Of a DNA stretch of 21,401 bases, positions 11,187-21,401 are shown piece by piece. Source of the DNA: a virus; the IMG/VR virus record IMGVR_UViG_3300037199_000019, positions 1 through 21,401 of that record; one strand, 5' to 3'. The position numbers and the translations under genes are program-made. The notes under the pieces are model-generated. The model was not told where the DNA came from. It searched no databases and was given only the letters and a program-made list of their open reading frames with translations. Each line of letters begins with the position of its first letter. Position 1 is the stretch's first letter.

Positions 11187-13535
11187 TCAAGCAGGTGCGG
11201 CTGCAGGCTGGGGTGCTGGCGCTGCGGCAGCCGGTGCCGGCAGCGCGGGGCGCGCGTTGCCGGGACCACCGAGCGCACCGCCGATCGCGCTCTCGGCAGT
11301 GGCGGCCGAACTCTGCGCGTTCTTCGCCGCGCCGGCCACGTTGCCGCCCGCGAGCGGATGCCCGGCCAGCGCCGCCGTGACAGCCGCGTTGATGACATCG
11401 CCGACGATCTTGGTCTGCTGCGCCTGCTGCTCGCGCTGGCTGATCGCGGCCTCCTGCTGCAGCGGTGCCTGCTGCGTGGCCTGCGCCTGGGCCTGCGCGG
11501 CCTGGGCCTGCTGCGCCGTCTGCTGCTCCACCTCGTCCTCGCTGGGTGTGACGTCTTCGACCGGCATCTCGAGCGAGGCCGCGACCATGCGCAGGCTCTC
11601 GGCGATGTACTTCGGCCCAAGCAGGTTCGACAGCACCGGGTTGTCGGTGACGAGCTGCAGCCACTGCATGCGCCGCTGCTGCGCCGATTCCTTGATGAGG
11701 ATCGCCGCGGCACCGCGCGGCACCACCGTGCAGGCACCCTTGATCGAGGTGTCGGGGTTGTAGAGCATCTCGTTGACGAACGTGTCGCCGATCGTGGCGC
11801 TGATCACGTTCAGGTCGATGTTCGAGATCGCACGGCGCAGACCCTTGGCCGCGTTGTTCATCAGCATCGAGAGACCCGTCGCGGTGTCGGCGCTGCCACC
11901 TGCGCGCTCGTTGCCGTAGGTGTAGCGCGGGATGCCGGTGGCGTCATCGGCGCGGACTTCCCACTTCTCGTAGGTCGCCATGAGCGGGCCGCTGCGGTCG
12001 TCGGCCTGCCAGAAGCCCATGCCCGGGTTGACGCCCTGGGTCGGGTCGCTCTTGAGCTGCCAGACCTTCCACGGGTACACCTCGAGGATGTTCTCGCCGT
12101 CCGCGAACCGGTCGGCGTGGACCCAGATCATCGGCCCGCTCGCCATGCTCAGGTTGTCGGCCAGCGCGCAAGCGATGCCGTCACACATTTTCTGTGACGT
12201 AGAGCACAGGTCGGGGATCGAGCGGCCCCAGAACGCACCGGGCACCTCGTCATAGCAAGCCTTGCGGTACGGACGCTGCCCCAGCGGATCGGGATTGAGC
12301 GCTGCATACAGCACGTACTTGCCGCACAGCAGCACGTTGGCCTCGTAGTCCTTGGTGGGCTCGATCGGGTCCTTGTCGACCGACAGCACGCCCCAGGTCA
12401 TCAGCTTCCAGCCGGGGACCATGCCCCAGAAGTTCAGCGCGTCGATGACGCCCGGTGGCGACAGCCACATATACAGCGACTCCTGCTCGAGCCGCTGCCT
12501 CTCGGCCTCGGTCCACAACCACCCCTCGAGGTGGCCGTTGGAGTAGTCGACGAGGGCCTTGTCGATCTCGTCGTCCTTGTAGTCCGGCAAGCCTTCGAGA
12601 GCGTGCAGTTCTTCACGGGTGAAGCGGATCCGTTCGATCAGGTCACCCTTCTGTGGGTTTTTCGCACTGGGCGCCGGATAGATGTCGAACGGGCTCACCC
12701 GCTCCCAGCTCTGCACCGGGTTGTCGCTCACCAGCGGCTTGAAGCCGGCGCCCCACTCGAGGATCTTGTGTCGCTTGTAGATCGGCCCTTTCAGGATCGC
12801 GGCCGGGTAGGTCACGAAGTCCTCGACGAAGCCGTCCATCGCGGCCTCGTAGCCGCCCTGGTCGAGCCGCTCGGCGATGTGCTTTTCCATGCGCGCGGCA
12901 CGCTTGGCAGCCTCTTTGACGAGCGCGTGCTCGGTGTCGTCGCGCAGCTTGTCGCCGAGTTGCATCGCGAGCTGACGGAACTCGTCCTTGCCCATCGTGC
13001 CGCCACCGGCCTGGTTGATCTGCTGCATCGCCTGCTGCGCGCCTTGCAGCGCCTTGTTGACGATGCCCTTCTTGATCGACATCGGCAGGTCGGGGATCGG
13101 GTCAGGGTCCACACCCCACGGCTGCTCACCCACCGGCAGCACGATCTCGCGAATCCACGCAGAGGCGGCGCGGCATTTCGTCTCGGTCAGGTCGGCCTTG
13201 ACGATGTTCATGCCGCCGTTGGCGAGCTGCATCGCGGCGAGCGCGCTCGGCGAGTACAGGCCGCGTCGCTCGCGCAGGCATGAGAGCAGCTTCATGTCGA
13301 TCTTCTGCTTGGACAGCTTGTTGCGGCCCCAGGCCGCGCGCACGTGGCTCGCAAGCGCGGTCAGTGCCCGGTCGTCATCGACCGATTGCGCCTCGGGGGG
13401 CTTCTCGGCATCGCGCTGGAGCAGTTGCTGCAGGCCCAGCGCCCGAATCATCGGGTTCTTGCCTTGGCTCGGCGGCGGTGTCATCGCGCCGGGGGGTGGC
13501 CCGGGAGCTGTCTGAGCGGCAGAGGCTGGAACCAT
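11187..13535 (-). CDS. portal protein (782 aa)
   Basis: It is a large protein of P22-portal size. The segments GRNKLSKQKIDMKLLSCLRE, RRGLYSPSALAAMQLANGGM and VKADLTETKCRAASAWIREI follow the N-terminal portal pattern. The middle has WERVSPFDIYPAPSAKNPQK and PFDIYPAP-type turns common in portals, then MCDGIACALADNLSMASGPM and GADLDSSL-free, Trp-rich wing sequence. The C-terminal 150 residues are Gln/Ala-rich (QQTAQQAQAAQAQAQATQQA), suggesting a helical barrel or crown extension. It would form the dodecameric DNA entry ring. The first 50 residues are Pro/Gln-rich, and only a weak GGTGA-type ribosome site precedes the ATG at 13535. The later Met29 is an alternative start. Confidence 0.85.
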   Translation of the reverse strand: MVPASAAQTAPGPPPGAMTPPPSQGKNPMIRALGLQQLLQRDAEKPPEAQSVDDDRALTALASHVRAAWGRNKLSKQKIDMKLLSCLRERRGLYSPSALAAMQLANGGMNIVKADLTETKCRAASAWIREIVLPVGEQPWGVDPDPIPDLPMSIKKGIVNKALQGAQQAMQQINQAGGGTMGKDEFRQLAMQLGDKLRDDTEHALVKEAAKRAARMEKHIAERLDQGGYEAAMDGFVEDFVTYPAAILKGPIYKRHKILEWGAGFKPLVSDNPVQSWERVSPFDIYPAPSAKNPQKGDLIERIRFTREELHALEGLPDYKDDEIDKALVDYSNGHLEGWLWTEAERQRLEQESLYMWLSPPGVIDALNFWGMVPGWKLMTWGVLSVDKDPIEPTKDYEANVLLCGKYVLYAALNPDPLGQRPYRKACYDEVPGAFWGRSIPDLCSTSQKMCDGIACALADNLSMASGPMIWVHADRFADGENILEVYPWKVWQLKSDPTQGVNPGMGFWQADDRSGPLMATYEKWEVRADDATGIPRYTYGNERAGGSADTATGLSMLMNNAAKGLRRAISNIDLNVISATIGDTFVNEMLYNPDTSIKGACTVVPRGAAAILIKESAQQRRMQWLQLVTDNPVLSNLLGPKYIAESLRMVAASLEMPVEDVTPSEDEVEQQTAQQAQAAQAQAQATQQAPLQQEAAISQREQQAQQTKIVGDVINAAVTAALAGHPLAGGNVAGAAKNAQSSAATAESAIGGALGGPGNARPALPAPAAAAPAPQPAAAPA

Positions 13536-14590: not shown

Positions 14591-15286
14591 TTACGTGCCC
14601 TTACAGCTCGCCGGCAAGAACTTCAGCGGTGTGCCGCCAGCCGCTGTCGGTCCGCAGATCCAGCGCGCGATCTGCGTGCCTACGGTGGGCGCCACGACAG
14701 CGCCGCTCACCGTGGTGCTCGGCACGAACTGGAGGGACGAGCCGTCGATCGTGGCGTCGCCCGTACCTTGCACAACGATCGCGATCACCCCGTTGGCATC
14801 GGTCGAGATGCTGGCGACGTACTTCGTCACGTTCGGCCCGGCGTTCTCGCAGCCCCAGGCGCCGGCTGCCGGCAGCGTCGATGCCGACTCGACGGCCTCG
14901 GTGATCGTGTTGCGGCAGGTACTGGATGCGACGAGCGCCTCAGTGAGCTTGGCCCGCTTGGTGTAGTCCTGATACGCGGGCAGCGCGAGGGCCGCAAGGA
15001 TGCCGATGATCGCGATGACGATCATCAGCTCGATGAGGGTGAAGCCGGCCTGTTTTGTCGAGGGTTCGTTTTCTTCGTCGGGCGCGTCGTCATCGCCTTG
15101 CAGAATCGCCAACGCATTCTTGGCGTAGAACGTGGTCCCCGGTGTTGCTTCTGCCCGGATTTTCATGTCCGCGACTAGCTCTTCGTCGGTCATGTGCGCT
15201 GTCCTCGCAGCATCAGCCTTTACCTTCGCCGCGACTTCAGCGCTGCGACGAGCCATACGTTGCTCTTCAGTCTCGTTTTGTTGCAT
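14591..15286 (-). CDS. type IV pilin (PilA-like) with an 81-residue N-terminal extension
   Basis: Residues 81-231 are a complete type IVa major-pilin core. The prepilin peptidase site is KQAG|FTLIE, with Phe as mature residue 1 and Glu at mature position 5. A hydrophobic helix ([16 protein letters not shown]) leads into [20 protein letters not shown]. Four cysteines lie at residues 124, 146, 211 and 228, and the last pair would form the C-terminal D-loop (ARWIC...FLPASCKG). The mature length of about 150 residues is normal. The leader is not normal: residues 1-80 are a charged helical region ([35 protein letters not shown]) ending in an acidic linker ([12 protein letters not shown]). The ATG at 15286 is chosen for its GGAG site 8 bases upstream; a GTG at 15346 has no such site and would overlap the upstream gene. 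The neighbours are the terminase and portal genes. A role in altering host pili is inferred only. Confidence 0.85.
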
Positions 15287-15318
15287 GGAAATCTCCGATT
15301 GCAGTTGGGGTGACGCAG

Positions 15319-15333
15319 TGTATCGACTGATAC
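15319..15333 (-). promoter_or_regulatory. GTATC-AGTC-GATAC inverted repeat upstream of the pilin fusion
   Basis: On the minus strand this reads GTATCAGTCGATACA: 5-bp arms with a 4-base spacer. It fills the gap just after the stop of the upstream 67-aa gene and ends 32 bases before the pilin-fusion ATG. The identical 15-mer occurs on the plus strand at 18880-18894, 36 bases before the first early gene, in the same orientation relative to its gene. A regulator binding site is the likeliest reading. Confidence 0.5.
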
Positions 15334-15537
15334 TCAGCGCGTCCACCCGAAGCGGGCGATACGCTGCGCCAGCACCGACGAGTAGAGCTGCATCAAGCCG
15401 CTCTGCCGCAGCAACAGCTTCTGATCGATCTCGTCGAGATCGCTGAAAGCTGCTGCGCAGGTGAACGCCTGCAGCGCCTTGATCTTCGCATCCAGTTCGT
15501 CCTTCTCCTTGACGACGCGCTGCTGGTACTCTTCCAT
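15334..15537 (-). CDS. crAss001_48-related small phage protein (67 aa)
   Basis: The ATG at 15535-15537 has AGGAG 5 bases upstream, overlapping the large-terminase stop. A GTG at 15558 would extend it into the terminase gene without a ribosome site. The product [20 protein letters not shown] ... [20 protein letters not shown], ending [14 protein letters not shown], matches the compact two-helix pattern (EYQQRV..EK.ELD.K, then LL.RQ...M..YS..L..RI) of small proteins usually labelled crAss001_48-related. Such genes are widespread in phages and their function is unknown. It is translationally adjacent to the terminase. Confidence 0.75.
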
Positions 15538-15545
15538 CGCTGCTC

Positions 15546-17204
15546 CTACCTCGTCCACACCATCGTGCGGCGCCGGACCGGCCGCGCGACTGCGGCGTTC
15601 ACCTTGCGGTCAATCAGCTCAGGGATGAAGGAAAGTGCTAGACTGTCTGCGCAGTCAGGGCTCTTACCTCCATTCTTTTTTAAATCCTTCTTACTTTGCA
15701 ACTGGATACGGAACAGGCCGTCGTAACCGTAGTCGAGCGAACTGAGTTGGATCGCAAGCTCGTCGTCGTCCGGGATGTCGCCCGTCTCCAGAAAGTCGCG
15801 CATCTTGCCCCACGCTTCCGAGCGCTGGTTGAAGTACGCCTTGGAGTCCTTGGCGGGCTGGCCCCACATCACCGGGATCAGCAAAGGGAGCCCTTGCATG
15901 CGGCGCAGGGATGAGTCGAGATCGGCGCCGTTGCCGTTGGCGTCGTAGACGATGCACGCGGCGCCCGCGGCGGGCTCGCGCCGCTGGCCGCGCTCGTCTC
16001 GTTGGCGGGTGTCGTCGTTGCGGAGAAGGGCAAAGATGCGGGATGCCAGATCCGGTCCGTCGAAGCCCGACAGCTTCACCTGCCAGTGCACCTTCAACCC
16101 CTGTCTTAAGGTGATCACCGTGAAGTCGTCGCCGAAGCGCGCAGGGTCGACCGCGAGGATCTTCTGGTAGGTGTTGTAGACGTTGACGCCGAGCGCACGG
16201 CGCCGGGCCTGCGTCACCAGCTCGGGTGAGATGAAGTTGGCGTACCCGGCCCGCGGGAACTGCCCCTTGACCCGCACCCGCACGAAGTCCGAGTCCTCGC
16301 CGTAGTCCTCGATCCACTCGGCGATCTTGCCCTTGTTCGTGAACCGCACGTTGCGCGCATCGACGCGGTGATAGGCATTCCTCTTGGGCACCGAGCACGC
16401 CGCGAAGAACTCGCCCGAGGTGCGCGTGGGGTTGCCGTAGCGGCACCAGATGATCTCGGTGTTGGCGTCGGTGAGGGCACCGCGCGTCACGTCCCAGATC
16501 GGGTCGTCGATCGTCGATGCCTCGTCAAACATGCACAGGATGCGCCGGCCCTTGTTGTGCAGGCCGGCGAACGCCTCGGTGTTGTTCGACGACCACGGCA
16601 CCGCGTCGATGCGCCAGCTCTTCTCCCTGACCGGATCGCCTGCGATGTAGATCGCCGTGGCCGTCAGCGTGAACAAGCCCTTGGCGATGAAGAGCTGATA
16701 CCACTTCGACAGCTCGGCCCACGTCTTCGTGCGTAGCTGCGTGTCCGTGTTCGCGGTCACCACGCCGCGCGTGTCCGCGAACGTGCTGATCGCCCACAGG
16801 ATGAGCCAGCTCACCTCGGCGCTCTTGCCAACACCGTGGCCGCTGGAGATGTCTTCCTCGATCACGGCGCCGAGCGAGGCGCCTGCGCGCAGCTTGACGC
16901 CGATCCGCTCGAGCTGCTCGGCCTGCCAGACCTCCGGCCCCTGCTCGTCCTCGAGCGCGGTGCCCGGCTCGCCCCACGGGAACGCCCAGCGCACGAAGCC
17001 GAGCGGGTCATGCTGGAAGCTGCCCAGCATGTCGAACAGCTCGTCGAACGCCGTCCCTTTGAGCGACGCGGCAGCGACCGTGGCTGCCCTCACCGGTATG
17101 GCCCCGGCTCTGCTCGGGGACGCCGAGGAACCGCCCTCGGCTCCCGGGCTCTGCCAGCCGCCACGACCTTTGCGCTCTTTCCAGATGACTCTAGTTTGGG
17201 CCAC
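15546..17204 (-). CDS. terL: terminase large subunit (552 aa)
   Basis: This is the ATP-driven packaging motor and headful or cohesive-end nuclease. Walker A is SSGHGVGKS (120-128), Walker B is ILCMFDE (222-228), and a coupling-type motif follows ([16 protein letters not shown], 249-264). The RNase H-like nuclease domain shows its acidic residues in [12 protein letters not shown] (D353), [12 protein letters not shown] (D421) and [12 protein letters not shown] (D517/D520). Length is normal for the family. The start is a GTG at 17204 inside the preceding gene, overlapping its last codons by 14 bases, with no clear ribosome site, so translational coupling is likely. The first 50 residues are Gly/Ser/Ala-rich, and a later start cannot be excluded. 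Confidence 0.93.
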
Positions 17205-18755: not shown

Positions 18756-18930
18756 CGCTTGTTTTTCCTAAAAGGGAAGAGCTTGGCGAGCTTTAGCGTG
18801 TTTCGTGGATGGTTTGCAGCGACTTCATGCCGAACTATTCTAAGCGCACTGCAAAATCTTACATCACAATCATGGAGCTGTATCAGTCGATACAGGGCAA
18901 ACGCTGCAACATCTTACATAGGGCAACATC
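18756..18930. promoter_or_regulatory. divergent regulatory region of the early operon
   Basis: This 175-bp AT-richer spacer separates the two transcription directions. A possible plus-strand promoter is TTGCAG (18814-18819), 16 bases, then TATTCT (18836-18841), which is a weak match to sigma-70. Downstream of it lie the inverted repeats listed separately, which would sit in the transcribed leader or over the promoter. Confidence 0.4.
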
Positions 18931-18945
18931 ATGCAAAATCTTGCA
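18850..18945. promoter_or_regulatory. three TGCAA-N4-TT(G/A)CA operator-like repeats
   Basis: Copies are at 18850-18863 (TGCAAAATCTTACA), 18905-18918 (TGCAACATCTTACA) and 18932-18945 (TGCAAAATCTTGCA). The last is a perfect 5-bp-arm inverted repeat overlapping the first codons of the 70-aa gene. Spacings are 55 and 27 bases. The pattern resembles binding sites of a dimeric regulator repressing the early operon. The regulator is not identified in this window. Confidence 0.5.
18879..18894 (+). promoter_or_regulatory. TGTATC-AGTC-GATACA inverted repeat upstream of the early operon
   Basis: Perfect 6-bp arms surround a 4-base spacer, 36 bases before the ATG of the 70-aa gene. Fifteen of its bases (18880-18894) are identical to the element upstream of the pilin fusion at 15319-15333 on the minus strand. 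Confidence 0.5.
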
Positions 18946-19143
18946 CTGACTCGCTACATCGATGCAATGCGCAACACTGATAAGCGCGCCTACGCTCAAG
19001 CGGTCGCATCCTACGGCCCGGGATCAAAGCAAGCTGAAGCCTTGCGGCCGACACTAAGCTACATGGGCGCGCAAGCGGTACGGATGTCCATCGCTGACAT
19101 CGTAGCGCACATTGACGCAGGCACGGAAAACCGCAACGCCTAG
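18931..19143 (+). CDS. small hypothetical early protein (70 aa)
   Basis: The ATG at 18931 has AGGG about 8 bases upstream. The product is MQNLALTRYIDAMRNTDKRA, then YAQAVASYGPGSKQAEALRP and a C-terminal helix (VRMSIADIVAHIDAGTENRN). It is helical and soluble, with no recognised domain. It is the first gene of the plus-strand operon, and its own start codon lies within the third operator-like repeat, suggesting tight regulation. Function unknown. Confidence 0.65.
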   Translation: MQNLALTRYIDAMRNTDKRAYAQAVASYGPGSKQAEALRPTLSYMGAQAVRMSIADIVAHIDAGTENRNA

Positions 19144-19147
19144 ATCT

Positions 19148-19194
19148 CATCGGCAAGGGCAACAAGCCTTTGCCGATGCGCAACCCCGCGCATC
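19148..19194 (+). promoter_or_regulatory. overlapping alternative hairpins before the DUF932 gene
   Basis: Hairpin 1 pairs 19148-19159 with 19167-19178 (CATCGGCAAGGG/CCTTTGCCGATG, 12 pairs with one G-U). Hairpin 2 pairs GATGCGC (19175-19181) with GCGCATC (19188-19194). The two share GATG (19175-19178), so they cannot form together. The arrangement mirrors the repeats at 20351-20429 and 20745-20818. Confidence 0.5.
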
Positions 19195-19219
19195 GCAACC
19201 GTTCACACAAGGGTCAATC

Positions 19220-20353
19220 ATGAGTCACGAAATCACTATCCGCGAGTCAGGCCTTGCCGAGTTCGCCTATGTCGGCGAACAAGGATGGCACAAGCTAGGC
19301 CAATCCATCGAAGCCTATCTGGCAACGATCGGCCTGTCAGTCGGCACCGCGTCGCCCGAACAGATGGAGCACGCATGGGCAAAGTGCGCGGGCATGGATT
19401 GGAAAATCCTTCGCTCCAAAGTGCGCTACTTCGCAGATCGCGAAGGCAAGGATCAAAGAACCATCGACGATGCGCACGTGCTCATGCGCAGCGATACGGG
19501 CGCCGATCTGGGCATCGTCAGCGACAAATACAAGACAGTGCAACCCGCGCAAGTGCTCGCCTTTTTTCATGAGCTTTCCGCTGCGCTTGGCGTGAAGCTC
19601 GAAACAGCCGGAACGCTCTTCGGCGGTAAGAAGTTCTACGCAACAGCTCGCATCGGCGGAGAGTACATCTTTGGCAACAGCGGCGACAAATTGCGTCCGT
19701 ATCTGTTGCTTGCTACATCCTGCGATGGTTCGGCAAAGACTACGGCGCGCGACATCATCACGCGTGTCGTCTGTGACAACACAATGTCTGCCGCGATGAG
19801 CGAAGCGACAAAACATGTAGTGAATCTGTCGCATCGCTCAGTCTTCGATGCTCAGAAAATCAGGGATCAGCTCGGCATCGTTGACACGCTCGCTACCGCG
19901 CAGGCCTGCGAGTCTTTGACTCAAGTGCGCATGAGCGACGACAAAGCATGCGACTTTGTGCGTAATCTGCTCCGTCCTGAAGATGCCGCAAAGAAGGCCG
20001 CGACGATCGCTGAAGCTCAGGCCAAAACGGCGCGCATCCTGGCGTCTGCCTCGGGTTCGCAAGACTTCGCGCGTCTGCTCGGCGGCACAGTGAAGCTCGC
20101 CGATGTTGCGACCGACGAGAAGCGCGCACCCAAGGGCGAGGCCGAGATACTGCGTCTGTTCCGTGGCGCCGCGATCGGTAGCAATCTGTCGGGCGTGCGT
20201 GGCACCGCATGGGGCATGTTGAACGCAGTCACGGAGTACGTCGACCATAAGGCGAGCGCGAAGACTGACTCGCATCGCATGCAGTCGGCATTGTTCAACG
20301 GCGGCGACGAGCTGAAGACATCCGCATTCGAACAGCTTCTCGCGATGCGCTAG
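19220..20353 (+). CDS. DUF932 phage/plasmid-like protein (377 aa)
   Basis: The sequence follows the DUF932 (TIGR03299-type) pattern: the N-terminal block AYVGEQGWHKLGQSI, then HAWAKCAGMDWKILRSKVRY, LGIVSDKYKTVQPAQVLAFF, the central LRPYLLLATSCDGSAKTTAR, ITRVVCDNTMSAAMSE and the C-terminal SNLSGVRGTAWGMLNAVTEY, VDHKASAKTDSHRMQSALFN. The frame is open upstream to 19112, but the ATG at 19220 has AAGGGT 6 bases upstream, and the added residues would read through the hairpins. These proteins occur widely in phages and plasmids, often near recombination genes. The biochemical role is not established. It is the largest gene of the early operon. Confidence 0.88.
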   Translation: MSHEITIRESGLAEFAYVGEQGWHKLGQSIEAYLATIGLSVGTASPEQMEHAWAKCAGMDWKILRSKVRYFADREGKDQRTIDDAHVLMRSDTGADLGIVSDKYKTVQPAQVLAFFHELSAALGVKLETAGTLFGGKKFYATARIGGEYIFGNSGDKLRPYLLLATSCDGSAKTTARDIITRVVCDNTMSAAMSEATKHVVNLSHRSVFDAQKIRDQLGIVDTLATAQACESLTQVRMSDDKACDFVRNLLRPEDAAKKAATIAEAQAKTARILASASGSQDFARLLGGTVKLADVATDEKRAPKGEAEILRLFRGAAIGSNLSGVRGTAWGMLNAVTEYVDHKASAKTDSHRMQSALFNGGDELKTSAFEQLLAMR

Positions 20354-20818: not shown

Positions 20819-21401
20819 AGCCAAAAATTCTACGCATCGCCTAGCGATACGTTCACGTCGCCGAACGGCGCTATCGGGCATCGCCCGGGCGGCGCGTTCG
20901 ACTGCCTCGGCCCGTATGCCAAGGTGCGCAACTGCCCGATTGATGGGACCGATCTGCGCCGCACGTGCTACGCATCGGGGTACGCTGACACTGCGTTTTC
21001 AATCCCTGCGAACACCCGTTTTCGCGGGCATCACATCGGAGGCTATTTCACGAACGACGACGAGGGCATCGTTTTCAACGCGCACCGCGCGCATTGGCAA
21101 ACCCTAGGCATCCTCGCACCGTGGACTAGCTCATCCGGCCGGATCATTCTCGACATCCGCAAGGATGATGCGCAGCGCTGCGCCACGCCCGGCAAGCCTG
21201 CCGATAGCGAGGTTTTCGCACTGTCGCAGCGAGAGTACATGCGCGAACAGTTCGCCCGTGTCATCGACGCGGACATCCGCGCCGAGCTTGCCGAGCTGGG
21301 TGCATGGGATACCTCAGAGCTTGCCGACAAATTCCAAAACCGAATCCGTTTGCTATGGGTCGCATGCTGCGACATCCGCGAAGCCCTGCACGCCGAGGTG
21401 C
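20816..21401 (+). CDS. hypothetical early phage protein, cut by right edge (195 codons seen)
   Basis: The frame is open from the ATG at 20816, with GAGG 6-7 bases upstream, to the window end. It begins MSQKFYASPSDTFTSPNGAI, then GHRPGGAFDCLGPYAKVRNC, CPIDGTDLRRTCYASGYADT and a later segment FTNDDEGIVFNAHRAHWQTL. The central part has helices (LSQREYMREQFARVIDADIR, ELAELGAWDTSELADKFQNR). Several Cys occur (CLGPY, RNCP, RTCYASG, VACCD), but no clear zinc-finger spacing. I do not recognise the family. It belongs to the early operon by spacing and shared intercistronic element. Confidence 0.75.
   Translation, partial: MSQKFYASPSDTFTSPNGAIGHRPGGAFDCLGPYAKVRNCPIDGTDLRRTCYASGYADTAFSIPANTRFRGHHIGGYFTNDDEGIVFNAHRAHWQTLGILAPWTSSSGRIILDIRKDDAQRCATPGKPADSEVFALSQREYMREQFARVIDADIRAELAELGAWDTSELADKFQNRIRLLWVACCDIREALHAEV

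Follow-up and report, generated by a model that had tools for sequence, protein, structure and literature searches.

Why should a type IV pilin gene lying between the terminase and portal genes of a phage carry the same inverted repeat as the early operon? The question is raised by a 21.4-kb virus record, the whole stretch of DNA that we analyzed (the window; 21,401 nucleotides), in which portal, terminase, and other virion genes lie on the minus strand and a DUF932 gene and others lie on the plus strand. The 15-mer GTATCAGTCGATACA occurs exactly twice in the window, at 15319-15333 (minus) and 18880-18894 (plus), 32 nt before the ATG at 15286 (minus) and 36 nt before the ATG at 18931 (plus). 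When the window was searched, the positions, strands, and start-codon distances given in the first-pass annotation all proved exact, and its caution that an exact 15-mer repeat is not very unlikely by chance agrees with the arithmetic: finding one 15-mer or another repeated within 21 kb is not unusual. Allowing up to three mismatches returned the same two matches only, with a mean of 0.23 in shuffled sequences and at least two matches in 3 of 100 shuffles. It is the comparison with relatives that lifts the repeat above chance. The relevant features are as follows.

14591-15286, minus strand: the "pilin fusion," a type IV pilin whose N terminus carries a long extension, matching Pfam PF00114 and PF07963 and PHROG 3433 "pilin" (moron category; E = 6.9e-11)
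15317-15345, minus strand: candidate pilin promoter, with a −35 TGGACG at 15345-15340, a 17-nt spacer, and a −10 TACACT at 15322-15317; overlaps the putative operator
15319-15334, minus strand (reads 15334-15319): putative pilin-proximal operator AGTATCAGTCGATACA, containing the 15-mer at 15319-15333; the same site precedes the pilin in L122/L203
18441-18755, minus strand: divergent gene bounding the early intergenic region, the anchor for comparing relatives
18814-18841, plus strand: weak candidate early promoter TTGCAG-16-TATTCT, found by reading, upstream of the operator and kept in L123
18850-18863, plus strand: direct-repeat copy TGCAAAATCTTACA on the left side of the early operator
18879-18894, plus strand: putative early-region operator TGTATCAGTCGATACA, containing the 15-mer at 18880-18894, with a counterpart at the same place in relatives
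18905-18918, plus strand: direct-repeat copy TGCAACATCTTACA on the right side of the early operator
18931-19143, plus strand: first early gene, 70 aa, no family
19220-20353, plus strand: DUF932 gene of the early block (PF06067, E = 2.7e-48 for the longer frame 19112-20353), with the start taken from the homologue in L123

The true unit is a 16-bp palindrome, TGTATCA-NN-TGATACA, of which the 15-mer is a part. The early copy forms an 18-bp inverted repeat, CTGTATC-AGTC-GATACAG. Read as CTGT-N10-ACAG, this copy was ruled out as a LexA box, which is CTGT-N8-ACAG (16 bp), because the spacing is wrong. The pilin copy sits in the 47-nt gap between a small open reading frame (15334-15558) and the pilin start. 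That frame has a match to a Pfam crAss001_48-related protein (E = 4e-17), which is unexpected in a Burkholderiales-type phage. None of the window's other late genes has a T-type 16-mer at up to two mismatches, and the looser pattern TGTAnCANNTGnTACA gave one extra match in the window, at 13417 within the portal gene. A terminator is weakly indicated at 14477-14464.

A scan of viral contigs with TerL yielded 80 loci at 92% to 37% identity, and a pilin scan yielded 6 loci. The first-pass annotation had named conservation in relatives as a check on the motif; it is conserved there and marks promoters, including those of the early region and of Cro-like regulator genes. Across 10 motif-bearing contigs, we counted 25 copies at up to two mismatches, whereas 60 permuted half-sites averaged 0.20 copies and never exceeded 2; since these contigs were picked for carrying at least one copy, the fair excess is about 15. 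By the permuted half-sites, about one such site per megabase would be expected by chance. With TGTATCANNTGATACA at up to three mismatches, 22 of 49 whole records matched, and the reversed pattern matched 3. A bare 14-mer scan of the collection gave 119 stretches and was set aside, since a collection of this kind will contain many chance matches to any 14-mer.

In the stretch separating the 18441 homologue from the early genes, the palindrome was present in 15 of 32 usable relatives at up to two mismatches and in 18 of 32 at up to three, compared with 3.6% and 9.1%, respectively, of random 400-nt windows from the same loci. The 32 derive from 48 loci, 10 of which lacked an 18441 homologue and 3 of which had too little upstream sequence (leaving 35), and three more (L150, L151, and L160) were left out because the wrong slice had been taken; L124, L126, and L127 are near-duplicates within this count. 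TGTATCA half-sites characterize the early sites of L123, L124 to L127, L130, L131, L135, and L141, and TGTAGCA-like ones those of L129, L134, L137, L142, L145, and L147, with the site placed further out in L135 and L138. Relatives without an early site are mainly more distant phages. The window and L123 also carry the direct-repeat pair TGCAAnATCTTACAT around the early operator at a 55-nt spacing, and L135 has another pair at the same place (TGCAAGGATTTACAT, 59 nt), each pair matching itself; a second sequence-specific factor could possibly act at these repeats.

HTH_3 matches were obtained in 8 of 24 records, and a ninth gene was found by eye in G003. All nine regulators are small (73-98 aa) and carry a CxxC motif in their C-terminal part. 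All nine genes have a site at up to three mismatches within 330 nt upstream, compared with 163 of 2,698 random windows. In eight of the nine, the ATG is preceded at 9-21 nt (9 to 10 nt in seven) by a proximal site, again at up to three mismatches. A second upstream site, which has 3-4 mismatches in G047, G017, and G021, is found at a distance of 64-252 nt and faces a divergent gene in several regulator-bearing genomes; the G041 regulator fits this arrangement less well. Judged from the sequence, the two-site layout is that of an autoregulated Cro-type gene. The divergent neighbor shares the operator region and looks conserved, its product starting MSAVSVTLTF in G002 and MSSVSVTITF in G003 (G002:C1, left of 4899; G003:C1, right of 21116; G047:C1, right of 12117).

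The solved relatives of the regulator are YdaS structures (8co2 and 8c7k; profile matches at E = 3e-6 and 5e-6), and YdaS was also nearest to its AlphaFold model, with a weak Foldseek match (E = 0.018). The Pfam YdaS model gave no match to the regulators at E ≤ 0.1, and PHROGs returned weak repressor families only. A profile of the nine regulators also picked up L145, in which the contig edge cuts the gene, and, among the other loci compared by then, only two weak Pseudomonas matches. The nine-regulator alignment was too divergent for a scan of the collection, and a three-regulator alignment returned only five loci, all on contigs already in the comparison. No CI-like partner was seen, with one HTH_3 match per genome in most records, which may be incomplete. 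The window has no HTH_3 gene before it ends at 21401, so the pairing of regulator and site is drawn here from homology only; by that homology, we infer that the regulator is present in the window's phage, its gene lying beyond the contig end. In G002, G003, and G004, the corresponding distances are 9.6, 4.8, and 7.9 kb, which predicts a minus-strand gene about 5-10 kb to the right of 18931, encoding an HTH protein of 85-100 aa and preceded by TGTATCA-type sites. In L123 (G002), the regulator gene starts at L207:5033.

At 19 non-early sites, the last four bases of the palindrome and two more form a −10-like hexamer facing the gene, often TACAnT. A T occupies position 6 of this hexamer on the gene side in 14 of 19 sites and on the other side in 1 of 19 (P = 3e-5, a descriptive value because the geometry was first spotted on the same sites). 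These 19 are the non-early copies with an assigned downstream gene, including the regulator genes; copies with no clear gene (G002 6999, G003 19983 and 38200, G004 13530, and G047 4162 and 9563) were left out, as was G004 36672, a looser-scan match. At the early promoters of G004, L130, L131, and L141, the −10-like element lies just upstream of the site, so the site would cover the start point. The consensus scan did not report TTGCAG-16-TATTCT and recognized no early promoter beside the window's early site. Putative operators also lie 8-13 nt before single genes at G003:C1:34444 and at G004:C1:24471 and 28257 (an MptE-like fragment, a 223-aa frame, and a 65-aa membrane-like frame), and these additional accessory genes may belong to the regulon.

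Across relatives, the half-sites are TGTATCA, TGTAGCA, or TGTACCA, often of the same class at the regulator and early promoters: TGTATCA at both in G002, G003, and G004, and TGTAGCA-like at both in G017 and G021. The regulator sites of G003 and G047 are mixed T/G. G036 and G046 have TGTACCA at the regulator, the early site of G036 being of another class, and no good early site was found in the stretch examined in G041, G046, and G047. The two halves of a palindrome can differ independently, which is more in keeping with a protein dimer than with an RNA stem. Four residues before its conserved Gly, the regulator has Gln in three of the TGTATCA phages and His in those with TGTAGCA/TGTACCA; covariation between half-site and recognition helix was nevertheless dropped, as G003 (His, mainly TGTATCA) breaks the pattern.

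Taken together, sites at the early region and at regulator genes, −10 elements, and matching half-sites make the operator of an autoregulated phage repressor the most likely explanation. We consider it highly probable that the 16-bp palindrome is the operator of a phage-encoded, autoregulated Cro/YdaS-like HTH repressor, with the pilin among the controlled genes. The sequence itself shows the sites and their conservation, where they stand with respect to genes and −10 elements, the HTH gene linked to them in relatives, and the matching half-site variants, and from these we infer binding by the HTH protein, repression rather than activation, and a role for the pilin. A dimer of the repressor would bind TGTATCA-NN-TGATACA, each copy lying on or just after a host sigma-70-type promoter of the early operon, the regulator, the divergent gene, or a few extra genes, and in the window's phage the extra gene would be the type IV pilin. 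As the regulator accumulates, it would occlude the −10 or start-site region, so that early, regulator, and locally initiated pilin transcripts would be switched down together. Pilin expression by read-through from late transcripts is possible.

The pilin is common to the window, L122/L203, and L123, at about 75% identity, and lies between terL and the portal gene with differing neighbors; L122 and L203 were treated as one lineage because their leaders are near-identical. L122/L203 have GGTATCAGTTGATACA shortly before the pilin start, downstream of another gene than in the window. The L123 leader, AAGTGATCGCGATACACT, keeps the right half and the −10 TACACT and has lost the left half. With the full site in the window and L122/L203 and only a half in L123, the putative operator is kept in two of three pilin lineages. 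The pilin sites carry the −10 form, TGGACG-17-TACACT in the window (4/6 and 4/6 consensus matches, under the scan threshold) and GTGACG-17-TACACT in L122, with the same geometry as at the regulator genes. The proposal of the first-pass annotation that the pilin is under the control of the early genes, unlike its late neighbors, thus gains support at the sequence level from the candidate promoter under the site and from the second pilin lineage that keeps it.

The pilin begins "MKRLSRGFTLIEL" in L122 and "MHRIQRGFTLIEL" in L123. The window pilin has the leader and start codon of L123, yet about 75 residues precede GFTLIEL that are absent in L122 and L123. This extension has no INPHARED match at E ≤ 1, and the window pilin matches no INPHARED phage record at E ≤ 0.01. 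The gene is absent from most annotated relatives, and the pilins of L204 to L206 are on contigs that carry no further homologue from the window and lack the site. In the terL-portal interval of L123 (11650-12190), an endonuclease frame, presumably HNH/AP2-like, precedes the pilin, and L124 has other small genes there, making this a variable accessory-gene spot.

The pilin copy could be a coincidence or a functionless relic beside real operators in the early region, given that just two of three pilin lineages carry the site and that L123 is without the left half. Yet about one such site per megabase is expected, and this one falls in the 47-nt gap before the pilin; moreover, a second lineage with a different upstream gene has it close before the pilin, with the −10 geometry of the regulator genes, and we consider such a relic unlikely. 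The sites might instead be operators of a host regulator (for example, stress or global) tapped by the phage, since the window has no HTH_3 gene and the palindrome's size suits many host dimers. However, two copies lie upstream of the phage HTH gene in every regulator-bearing genome read, the half-site shifts between phages along with that gene, and a Rubrivivax-borne relative without the regulator is also without early or dispersed sites, all of which makes a host protein quite improbable.

An RNA hairpin in the leader transcripts (an attenuator, terminator, or processing site) agrees with the folding of the early copy, which has a 7-bp stem at −9.8 kcal/mol (z = −2.2), but the stem is broken in the G003 regulator site TGTATCAAGTGCTAAA, which does not fold (z = +0.77). 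The sites are not followed by a T-run, and at the regulator and pilin promoters the −10 lies inside the palindrome, which would therefore be mostly untranscribed; a hairpin is very improbable. We regard parS-like partition sites for a ParB-type protein as barely credible: the copies are dispersed and outwardly resemble canonical parS, TGTTTCACGTGAAACA, but they stand at promoters, and ParB_N (PF02195) was found in 0 of 24 records, with the control positive in 11 of 14 genomes.

The favored explanation, a phage repressor and its operators, is of a kind already known from phage Cro/CI operators; new are the phage group, the regulator subfamily, and the pilin in the regulon. As in the lambdoid Cro/CI system and YdaS of prophage CP-933P, a small XRE-type HTH protein is paired with 16-18 bp palindromes over its own and a divergent promoter; the footprints of YdaS, a Cro analogue, overlap both divergent promoters (PMC8630535). 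The XRE-type HTH gene is present in relatives, the window stopping before the regulator, and palindromes appear to lie over the regulator's own promoter at eight of nine genes, less clearly at G041. Unlike in those systems, there is mostly a single palindrome per promoter, copies also stand at distant early and accessory genes, the regulator has a C-terminal CxxC, and there is mostly one HTH_3 gene per genome with no CI-like partner seen. Mycobacteriophage L5-type phages likewise combine one repressor with many dispersed operators or stoperators (PMC9283540). The L5 repressor binds as a monomer to asymmetric 13-mers, some of which block elongation in short intergenic spaces, whereas here we find palindromes at promoters and not asymmetric sites in one orientation within operons. 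The window pilin matches the family of other phage-encoded pilins (PHROG 3433, moron category) and differs from them in its repressor-type operator and N-terminal extension. In our literature search, which did not extend to most subscription papers, no phage pilin was described as controlled by an early operator.

Among the matches listed, INPHARED has no TerL above about 46% identity, and epsilon15 and its kin are among the nearest records listed. In bacterial assemblies, relatives at 62-66% TerL identity fall in metagenome bins of Burkholderiales (L226, Rubrivivax; L227), so a host in Burkholderiales is likely; L225 (72% TerL identity) was binned as Verrucomicrobiota. In the virus records, which may be incomplete, we found tyrosine integrase in 0 of 15, resolvase in 0 of 10, and rve transposase in 0 of 8, and early shut-off is therefore a likelier role for the switch than lysogeny repression. 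In the Rubrivivax contig (66-68% TerL identity), matches to Phage_integrase lie at distances of about 28 and 26 kb. Across the 75 kb read, this contig has no regulator and no early or dispersed sites, and its two loose operator matches lie inside the portal gene and about 30 kb off.

A single repeated 15-mer thus leads to a testable regulon in a phage group distant from the INPHARED records listed, with a candidate regulator named and its place predicted in the missing part of the genome. The relatives offer a natural series of regulator/operator pairs with altered half-sites. More tentatively, these uncultivated, apparently integrase-lacking, podovirus-like phages may run their early program through a diversifying one-protein operator code, and the window's phage may have recruited a type IV pilin into that early regulon, to alter or block host pili and not as a virion component. 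If this is true, an early pilin would serve superinfection exclusion, one option suggested by phage proteins known to disable type IV pili (PMC11436027), or host takeover. The operator gives a sequence-based ground for expression of a phage pilin with the early genes, which bears on why phages carry pilins.
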